Shown: positions 1-3,453 of the stretch, piece by piece | Numbering within the stretch: position 1 is the stretch's first letter | Layout: each line of letters begins with the position of its first letter | Assembly: GCA_017631635.1 (NCBI GenBank) | Contig: JAGBSX010000007.1 | Coordinates: 1 to 57,816, forward strand | Source of the DNA: Clostridia bacterium | Lineage (GTDB): Bacteria; Bacillota; Clostridia; Christensenellales; RUG350 | Direction: 5' to 3' | Length of the DNA: 57,816 nt | Position numbers and translations under genes: made by a program | Notes under the pieces: model-generated | The model's input: only the letters and a program-made list of their open reading frames with translations | Told to the model about the DNA's origin: nothing | The model's database searches: none

Positions 1-56
1 CCTTCTGGAATGGGAGCACCACACACAACGCATACTTCTTCATTAAATTTTTCCAT
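1..56 (-). CDS. Partial zinc-ribbon protein (N-terminus only)
   Basis: The minus strand opens at an ATG at 56 and reads MEKFNEEVCVVCGAPIPEG before the window edge, so only the first 18 complete residues are visible. The CxxCGAPI motif is a typical half of a zinc ribbon seen at the start of many small clostridial membrane or regulatory proteins. The Shine-Dalgarno is weak (GGGCTAA, about 6 bases upstream). The 466 bases upstream contain the recombinase-associated repeats and a leftward promoter at 275-303, so this gene is the natural target of that promoter. Function cannot be assigned from this fragment. Confidence 0.5.
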   Translation of the reverse strand, partial: MEKFNEEVCVVCGAPIPE

Positions 57-178
57 AATATTTAGCCCATATAATTATATAGTCGTTTAGATGTTTTTGT
101 AGCAAACACAACACCTAGGCCATAAAAAATACTCCCATACAAGGAGTAGCTAACACAGGCCACAACTCAAAAACAACG

Positions 179-195
179 TAACGCTTGTTATGTTG
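179..195. repeat. Recombinase-associated repeat, copy 1
   Basis: TAACGCTTGTTATGTTG. Its first 15 bases recur exactly as a direct repeat at 213-227, a 34-bp period, and all 17 match the reverse complement of the copy near 471-488. Copy 1 lacks the first bases of the left arm seen in the other two (ACGTAAC instead of ACATAAC). Confidence 0.8.
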
Positions 196-209
196 CCCCC
201 AATTGTAAC

Positions 210-227
210 ACATAACGCTTGTTATGT
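210..227. repeat. Recombinase-associated inverted repeat, left (IRL)
   Basis: ACATAACGCTTGTTATGT is exactly the reverse complement of 471-488. Each copy is itself a perfect palindrome of 7-bp arms (ACATAAC/GTTATGT) around a 4-bp centre GCTT. That shape resembles a short site-specific recombinase or dimeric-regulator site. The asymmetric centre gives the site a direction. Confidence 0.8.
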
Positions 228-274
228 ATTCAAACATTGCTTATTGTAATGTAAAGAACTTTTTTCGAGACATT

Positions 275-303
275 ATAATAGCATAATTCATATAATTATG
301 CAA
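275..303 (-). promoter_or_regulatory. Leftward sigma-A promoter inside the repeat-bounded segment
   Basis: Read on the minus strand: -35 TTGCAT (298-303), a 17-bp spacer, then -10 TATTAT (275-280) with an extended TGC just upstream. The spacer region holds an 8-bp palindrome, GCATAATT (281-288) and AATTATGC (294-301), which could be an operator. The promoter points toward the zinc-ribbon gene starting at 56. Confidence 0.6.
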
Positions 304-350
304 GCGATTATCCTACATATATAAGAAGTTTTTTAATAATTTTTATTTTT

Positions 351-420
351 TGCATAGTGAAAAAAGCCGTTTCTATCAACTCTGATTCGATTTGAAAAGG
401 AAAGGCTATTTTGCTATGCA
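351..420. other. Imperfect long inverted repeat, possible terminator
   Basis: TGCATAG (351-357) pairs with CTATGCA (414-420), and an inner AGCC (365-368) pairs with GGCT (404-407). A T-run follows on the plus strand (422-427). It lies inside the possible invertible segment and could act as a terminator in one orientation only. Confidence 0.4.
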
Positions 421-470
421 ATTTTTTATCTTAAGTTTCTCATAAACGAAGTTCTCATTTGATTTTTACA

Positions 471-488
471 ACATAACAAGCGTTATGT
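471..488. repeat. Recombinase-associated inverted repeat, right (IRR)
   Basis: ACATAACAAGCGTTATGT, the exact reverse complement of 210-227. It lies 34 bases beyond the stop of the tyrosine recombinase gene. With IRL it bounds a 243-bp segment (228-470) that contains the leftward promoter. Confidence 0.8.
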
Positions 489-522
489 TATAAGGGCGGC
501 GTAAGTCGGTCTTTTTTTTTAT

Positions 523-1362
523 TTAAATAATCAATCGCATATTTTCCATTTTGCGCTTGTGTTCCGTGGCAGTAGTAATAATATAAATTCTAGTTGTGTT
601 TATGCTGGTATGACCTAAAATATCTGCTAGTTTTGCAATATCTTTTTCTATTCCATAAAAAGTTCTAGCAAATAAGTGGCGGAGATTGTGTGGAAATACT
701 TTACTCGGTGACACGCCAGCATCTTTGCATAATGCTTTCATATCTCTCCAAATATTATGTCGACTTACGGGTTTTCCGTTTTTCGTTATAAATATTGCCC
801 CGCTTTGTATTCCACGCTCCTTTATATATCGTAAAAGTTTTTTTCTCAATTCTTCTACAATAAAAATGCGCCGATTCTTCCCTTTACAATTCACGAACGC
901 TTCGCCTTTTTTCACCGCCTCAACTGTGATATATTGCAACTCACTAACTCTAATACCAGTGCCACATATCGTTTGTATAATCAAATTAAGTCTTTCGTTT
1001 CCATTCTTTCGAGACGCCTGTACAAGTCGAATATAATCCGCCTTTGATAGTTCCTTTTCTTCGGGACAGAAAGCGGATTTTTGTATTTTATATTGTTTTA
1101 CAAACAAATCGTACCACCCGCAAAAACGAAAAAAGACGTTGACTGCCGCAATCATTGAATTTGCACTTGTCACAGCGTGCGAACTTATGAGTGCATTTTT
1201 ATAATCTAATACAATACTCTTAACTACTTCTCTATTTCCCACAAACTCATAAAACGTTCTCATATCGTGCAAATACTTTTCAATAGTTGCGTTGCTTCGT
1301 TCTTCACACACTAAATAGTCTTCAAATTGTCGTAATTTCTCTTGATTTAATTGTCTTTTCAT
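523..1362 (-). CDS. Tyrosine recombinase (XerC/XerD/integrase family)
   Basis: Site-specific recombinase of 279 residues. The N-terminal SAM-like core-binding domain covers roughly residues 7-90 and the catalytic domain 105-270. All catalytic positions are visible: Arg138 (GTGIRVSEL), Lys in CKGKNR near 160-162, His225 and Arg228 (PHNLRHL), His251 (LGHTS) and Tyr260 (RIY). It should therefore be active. It is compact, without the arm-binding domain of large phage integrases, as in Xer proteins and DNA invertases. Leucine is mostly TTA, whereas the housekeeping genes favour CTA, which hints at foreign origin. Its 3' end faces three copies of an 18-bp palindromic repeat, the probable substrate. 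Alternatives are an integrase remnant of a mobile island or an integron-like integrase; no integron-specific insertion was recognised. Confidence 0.93.
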   Translation of the reverse strand: MKRQLNQEKLRQFEDYLVCEERSNATIEKYLHDMRTFYEFVGNREVVKSIVLDYKNALISSHAVTSANSMIAAVNVFFRFCGWYDLFVKQYKIQKSAFCPEEKELSKADYIRLVQASRKNGNERLNLIIQTICGTGIRVSELQYITVEAVKKGEAFVNCKGKNRRIFIVEELRKKLLRYIKERGIQSGAIFITKNGKPVSRHNIWRDMKALCKDAGVSPSKVFPHNLRHLFARTFYGIEKDIAKLADILGHTSINTTRIYIITTATEHKRKMENMRLII

Positions 1363-2522: not shown

Positions 2523-3453
2523 TTAGACTGTGGTAAATATCATTGTAAAATTGCCGTTCATAGTGACAGCGCAATTTGCAGGCAAGAAGTATGTCTGTCC
2601 TGCTTCAAACTTCATATCATACTCTTCAAATACGCCTCTCCATCAAGTATGGTAATGGCTACGAATTCGTCATACAATACAAATGTGCTGTCCTTCACTT
2701 CATATTTGCAAGTCTTAAAATACTTGCATTCTGCGATTACCGTCTTTATTATATTGCCGATAGCGACAGGGCTAGGTTGGACATATTCGATACTGTCTAG
2801 ATTTGAGACCTCTATCGCCTTGTCAACGTGAAGTTCTCTCTGCTTGCCGTCTGCTCCCACTCTAGCATAGTCGTACACTCTATACGTGACGTCGGAATTT
2901 TGTTGCACCTCACATATGGTCAACCCAGCACCGATAGCGTGCACCGTACCTGCATTTATCATAAATATATCACCTGCTTTGACCTCTATAAAATTCAGCA
3001 AATCGGTGATAGTATTATTCTCTATCGCCTGTTTATATTCTTCTTTTGTAATCTTATTCTTAAAACCGCATTATATGCCAGCACCTTCATCTGCATCCAT
3101 TACGTACCATACTTAGGTCTTTCCGTATTGTCCTTCGTTTGCTAACGCGTATTCATCCGAAGGATGCACTTGTATAGATAGAGGTGTCTTAGCGTCGATA
3201 AATTTGATAAGTACGGGAAACATTTCAAAAGATTTTGCATTATCACCCAAAAAATCAGGATTATTTGCCAAAATCTCATCAAATCTCATACCTTTGTAGA
3301 TGCCGTTGTCTGCCACACTCATACCGTTTTTGTGCAGAGACAATTCCCAAGATTCTGCTACAATATCAGTAGTGCCCTTATCCATTTTTTTAATTATGTA
3401 CCGCCCCAGATATTATCTTTGCAAGCGGGTTTGATAAGTATAGGATATAACAT
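2523..3453 (-). pseudogene. manA: Mannose-6-phosphate isomerase pseudogene (class I, short form)
   Basis: ManA interconverts mannose-6-phosphate and fructose-6-phosphate. About 310 codons can be reconstructed, the usual length for the short Firmicutes form. It begins MLYPILIKPACKDNIWGGT behind GGAG and ends FTTV-TAA just before glcK. It is broken by: an in-frame TAA after WGGT (3394-3396); one base missing in the following A-run (near 3385-3391); TAA after GQYGKT (3113-3115); another in-frame TAA about 50 bases later after DADEGAGI; and one base missing after ILDGE (near 2640). Cupin metal-site motifs (IQVHPSDEYA, INAGTVHAIGAG, EVQQNSD) survive in pieces. Five lesions make a sequencing error unlikely as the sole cause. 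Promoter, Shine-Dalgarno and operon position remain intact. Confidence 0.85.

Follow-up and report, generated by a model that had tools for sequence, protein, structure and literature searches.

The stretch of DNA analysed here (the window, 57,816 nucleotides of a contig from a Clostridia bacterium) very probably carries a recombinase-linked invertible promoter switch. The locus is a clear addition to the many ON/OFF switches of one large family that occur in poorly studied Clostridia of the gut, each a self-contained unit with its own linked recombinase, and within this family the distance between the two recombination sites changes in steps of about one helical turn. The features of the window switch are the following.

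1..56, minus strand: 5′ end of a zinc-ribbon gene, the presumed target; 18 codons up to base 1, where the contig ends
130..148, minus strand: terminator-like hairpin with T6, located in the leader that separates the switch from the target (0.2 expected in shuffles)
176..193, plus strand: third, tandem site copy, 17/18 identical, direct to 210-227 and 34 bp away
210..227, plus strand: distal recombination site, the inverse of 471-488 without mismatch; 261 bp between the two site centres
228..470, no strand: putative invertible segment of 243 bp, in the assembly in the promoter-to-target (ON) orientation
275..303, minus strand: promoter TTGCAT-17-TATTAT with a TG-extended -10 box, pointing away from the recombinase, with 56 bp between the -10 end and the site centre
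about 350..421, plus strand: strong hairpin followed by A-T6 (plus strand) inside the segment (z -4.8, 0/200 shuffles)
471..488, minus strand: proximal recombination site ACATAAC-GCTT-GTTATGT, inverted copy, fitting the family site ACATAAY-N4-RTTATGT
523..1362, minus strand: tyrosine recombinase (DNA invertase) of 279 aa, transcribed towards the switch; Pfam Phage_integrase (8e-26) and a SAM-like domain

The original prediction had described an exact 18-bp inverted repeat around a short intergenic segment, and both copies and the 243 bp between them were found as given, 35 bp from the recombinase gene. The near-copy at 176-193 had been overlooked; this third site would permit an alternative inversion of 295 bp. 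When up to 3 mismatches were allowed, the window contained three matches to the 18-mer against 0.08 expected, which excludes chance. In the whole genome (59 contigs), only three matches with fewer than 3 mismatches were obtained, all at the switch locus, and two further matches with 3 mismatches equalled the number obtained with a reversed-pattern control. The 18-mer is thus not scattered over the genome as a regulator site, the outcome that had been named as speaking against a switch. The switch locus is present on one contig only.

The adjoining recombinase is intact, as had been claimed (open reading frame 1362-523), and its catalytic residues R138, K162, H225, R228, H251 and Y260 do not vary in 20 homologues. 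Just upstream of the gene, at 1429-1482 on the minus strand, a sub-threshold Rfam match to the SpF36 sRNA was noted (31.8 bits, cut-off 48). The predicted leftward promoter is present inside the segment at 303-275. Since its score alone is no better than that of shuffled AT-rich sequence, we do not base it on the score but on its position, as the 56 bp to the site centre are the modal spacing of the family.

Both hairpins and the truncation of the zinc-ribbon gene had escaped the first reading. The hairpin at about 350-421 resembles a terminator that points towards the recombinase in the present orientation and would point towards the target after inversion. The hairpin at 148-130 is a possible attenuator; an Rfam scan of the leader for a known RNA gave sub-threshold matches only. 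A continuation of the zinc-ribbon gene was not found, as no other contig of the genome holds the first 21 or 560 bases. Because the contig ends inside this gene and the terminator-like hairpin lies in between, it is uncertain whether the zinc-ribbon gene is the real or the only target. A TasA/SipW operon was also considered as the target in the window and rejected, since the genome has no cognate_SipW match.

We propose that the recombinase would bind the two inverted palindromic sites, which would be paired by bending the approximately 250 bp in between into a short loop. Strand exchange inside the asymmetric centre GCTT would then invert the segment. With the promoter leftward (ON), RNA polymerase would read past the distal site into the co-directional neighbour, whereas with the promoter rightward (OFF) transcription would run into the recombinase gene from its 3′ side, while read-through would be stopped by the internal hairpin, now turned to the neighbour. 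The window was assembled in the away-facing ON state. That its own segment inverts in the source organism we infer from the anatomy of the locus and from the family.

To define this family, homologues of the recombinase were sought in overlapping sets of 61, 396, 391, 398 and 150 genomes and in a collection of 84,980 species, which yielded more than 582 relatives, of which the best 80 were retained. Loci with less than 350 nt past the stop codon were left out. Also left out were L142, L079, L018 and L019 of the first set (the 80 relatives and the order-level set), where the best repeat was not the site, and L130, which is identical to L072; the second batch lost four duplicates of training segments and two further repeats, and the third batch seven repeats. 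Among the 80 relatives, 57 of the 64 evaluable loci had an inverted pair no more than 500 nt from the stop codon of the recombinase gene (one of them, L142, not being the site), as compared to 1/64 upstream and 0/64 in shuffled sequence. The order-level set showed the pair in 19/24 evaluable loci (L079 not being the site by that search) and in 0/24 of both the upstream and the shuffled controls. In two later batches, 77/83 and 55/63 loci had a pair. No pair was detected in some close homologues (7/64, 6/83 and 8/63 in the three batches) and in the most divergent order-level homologues L041, L046, L086, L090 and L091. The same cassette is carried by recombinase homologues of about 40-72% identity, including those of 60-72%; L092, L095 and L097 (70-72%) are among the nearest relatives found.

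Identical 4-nt centres had been counted in 144/144 cassettes, but this was partly built in by the repeat finder, and the count was replaced by one based on the half-site motif only. Two ACATAAY-N4-RTTATGT sites more than 100 bp apart were found just past the recombinase stop in 138 of 163 evaluable distinct loci, whereas 408,389 nt of upstream flanks contained 2 motif matches. In 137 of these 138 two-site cassettes, both sites had the same centre when read in inverted order: 135 match in the inverted order only, 2 have palindromic centres, and L207 with its three sites fails. Between cassettes the centre spans 80 different 4-mers, and it is palindromic in 2/144. Judged by sequence, conserved arms with a free but matched crossover region correspond to the core site pattern of a tyrosine recombinase. 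Extra tandem sites were present in 22/144 related cassettes, and those close to an arm lay 30-34, 40-45 or 62-63 bp from it. In the cassette L163, tandem double sites at both ends form a 65-bp inverted repeat with four sites in all.

Nearly all segments of the family hold a match to a sigma-70-type promoter. For the 62 highest-scoring promoters of the first set, the spacing between -10 end and site centre formed clusters at 43-49 and 53-60 bp; the promoter-spacing counts exclude matches with a score of 10 or less and those lying less than 16 or more than 99 bp from the site. The two classes have no common sequence between promoter and site beyond the site itself. Short palindromes between the -10 box and the site were seen in L092, L101, L118, L082 and others, and these could be operators or 5′ RNA hairpins. 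The idea that promoter and terminator form a fixed opposed pair was rejected, as 19/33 is no better than chance. The G028 cassettes on C16, C51, C70, C71 and C142 lie at contig ends like that of the window; possibly, the assemblies were broken there by mixed orientations or repeats.

Both orientations of the segment were found among relatives. The segments of L092 and L095 align in the opposite strand (179 nt, 76%), whereas their distal flanks align in the same strand (632 nt, 73%), and the same arrangement was observed for L095 and L097. In L110 and L113, the segments align in the opposite strand (161 nt, 81%), with the recombinases collinear by construction. Since related segments are opposite between collinear flanks, the alignments indicate that inversion has happened within the cassette family. 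The promoter faces away from the recombinase in 47 of 162 scorable cassettes. A recombinase tree built from an earlier set of 130 showed 29 orientation changes, as compared to 33 in shuffles (range 26-38), and the orientation is therefore labile.

The first distal open reading frame is co-directional in 122 of 133 loci. Together with the matched inverted sites and the opposite segment orientations, this bears out the predicted layout of recombinase, invertible promoter and target gene as one that recurs. When 129 first genes were scanned, the most frequent matches were TetR_N (14), SPFH/Band 7 (7), leucine-rich repeats of the BspA type found in surface proteins (6), the prepilin motif (6), signal peptidase (5 in Pfam, up to 10 in NCBIfam), ResIII and DEAD helicases (4 each), camelysin (4) and zinc ribbon (3). 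With 3 of 129 first genes encoding a zinc ribbon, the zinc-ribbon gene of the window is not unusual. An N-terminal hydrophobic segment was present in 63/129 first genes by a simple heuristic used without a control set. In L092, L095 and L097 the first gene is TetR-like; Pfam TetR_N matched weakly in L092 and L095 and not in the shortened open reading frame of L097. A ResIII/DEAD helicase-like protein is the first gene past the switch in L043, L089 and L131, and in L043 and L089 it heads apparent polysaccharide loci with a glycosyltransferase, an ABC exporter and a sugar-nucleotide dehydrogenase, as read from the open reading frames. The genome G697 (family f67) has 14 copies of the recombinase family (loci including L247, L249, L251-L254 and L326-L330). 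Five of the six pilin-like first targets (L247, L249, L252-L254) are located in G697, the sixth being L080, and by its gene content this genome appears to hold a multi-switch pilin repertoire.

The sites are near-palindromic and sometimes tandem, and they might serve as operators, bound by an ordinary regulator or by the recombinase in that role, and flank a segment that does not invert; helical phasing, described below, is generally also typical of operator loops. We consider this very unlikely. The asymmetric centres are equal at both sites in 137/138 cassettes and yet comprise 80 4-mers between cassettes, which counts against operators because strand exchange demands the match and an operator does not. 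In addition, segments are inverted between relatives, and the 18-mer is confined to the switch locus. Even less probable, in our view, is an origin from a small mobile element, with the recombinase serving as its integrase and the repeats being what is left of the attachment sites. Many tyrosine recombinases are integrases, and the 14 copies in G697 would suit a mobile element. However, the sites are inverted and not direct, lie always 3′ of the gene and enclose a promoter, the targets are unrelated host operons, and no mobility genes were seen among the open reading frames of the window that were read. The direct attachment repeats around mobile genes that accompany a phage or mobile-element integrase were not found.

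We give appreciable weight, though less than an even chance, to a third explanation, by which the switch flips but the transcript stops at the hairpin at 148-130, so that the zinc-ribbon gene is under regulated attenuation or uncontrolled. Apart from this hairpin itself, inspection by eye showed that the L092 and L097 leaders, and less clearly that of L095, contain a comparable hairpin and T-run of different sequence, there followed by a GTAG-like palindrome. A published precedent is the flagellar switch of C. difficile, where Rho is reported to act. In contrast, a hairpin within 260 nt past the distal site was found in only 24/141 relatives, as compared to 11/141 on the other strand, and elsewhere in the family the gene follows directly, at a median distance of 71 nt.

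The RecV switches of C. difficile (flg and cmr) likewise have a segment inverted upstream of an operon and termination control past the switch. RecV is a tyrosine recombinase, and this one recombinase serves several distant switches, whereas each segment of the window family has its own adjoining recombinase. The Mpi-type invertible capsule promoters of Bacteroides drive surface operons, and a master invertase acts there on many unlinked promoters. Invertible promoters are common to both systems, but in the window family the recombinase is linked one to one. XerC, XerD and XerA belong to the same fold family, and the best solved relative of the window recombinase is the XerA-like 4a8e (1.5e-38). 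However, the window recombinase stayed below all Xer cut-offs (145 of 220, 113 of 330 and 105 of 335 bits; NCBIfam XerA 145 bits), and it has two inverted sites around a promoter and not a single dif.

The closest described group is inverton group 139 with 33 invertons, 32 of them from Clostridia, which is tied to the tyrosine recombinase (invertase) group 35 (Jin et al. 2025, PMC11892184). That paper measured orientation shifts of group 139 in Clostridium sp. D5 and Intestinimonas butyriciproducens, and the coordinates of the two printed loci give repeat offsets of 231 and 241 bp. Both offsets fall on peaks of the site-spacing distribution of the window family. As far as group 139 is described there, the likeness is one of architecture, with an adjoining tyrosine recombinase, and of repeat offsets. 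The named relatives of the window are mostly Clostridia. Probably, the window family and the group 139 family are the same. The main text of the paper gives no spacing rule and no tandem sites, and the words "helical" and "spacing" are absent from it.

In 192 cassettes, the site-to-site distance peaked at 228-232, 239-244, 249-254, 260-265, 271-274, 281-286 and 293-296 bp, near integral turns of 10.5 bp, and 148/192 were within a quarter turn of a common phase. The promoter-to-site distance peaked at 35, 46 and 57 bp, with 145/168 within a quarter turn. With the phase set in advance, the promoter-to-site distance gave u=6.77 (n=66) and u=4.33 (n=37) in separate batches. The site-to-site distance gave V=0.36, u=4.27 (n=71) in the second batch, where the phasing was weaker, and V=0.53, u=5.16 (n=48) in the third. 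Plain Rayleigh p-values were rejected as evidence, since a control distance, from the stop codon to the first site, reached a nominal 1.4e-4, because the relatedness of the cassettes inflates the statistic. Relatedness was handled with 95 neighbour pairs on disjoint paths of the recombinase tree. For the site-to-site distance, 58/95 pairs differed by 6-69 bp; they yielded V=0.444 and u=4.79, and with the period left free the best fit was 10.70 bp. For the promoter-to-site distance, 27 pairs gave u=2.25 with a period of 10.85, and for the control distance 47 pairs gave u=0.11. There is strong evidence that the site-to-site spacing steps by about one helical turn; for the promoter-to-site spacing, helical steps are suggested. 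The window fits this phasing with its 261 bp between the sites (295 bp if the third site is used) and its 56 bp between promoter and site.

The twist dependence of short DNA loops is established physics, LacR looping being an example. Whole-turn spacing with a best period of 10.7 bp implies that the sites pair directly across a short, torsionally stiff loop, and is a direct evolutionary sign of such twist-limited pairing. Our literature search turned up no description of natural invertons with phased spacing. The kind of switch itself is known, but its spacing rule in recombinase-linked invertons is probably new. Speculatively, and with doubt, we suggest that recombinase and RNA polymerase form one stereospecific assembly in which both sites, the tandem sites (3, 4 or 6 turns apart) and the promoter (35, 46 or 57 bp from -10 to site) lie on the same helix face. 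Transcription and inversion would then influence each other, and supercoiling would be sensed via the twist of the approximately 250-bp loop. Spacing changes make the recombinase-loop geometry and a possible coupling of transcription and inversion testable.

Elsewhere in the window, at 2612-3394 on the minus strand, a gene that reads like a phosphomannose isomerase is split over frames (open reading frames 3385-3113 and 3001-2612), which points to either a pseudogene or assembly errors.
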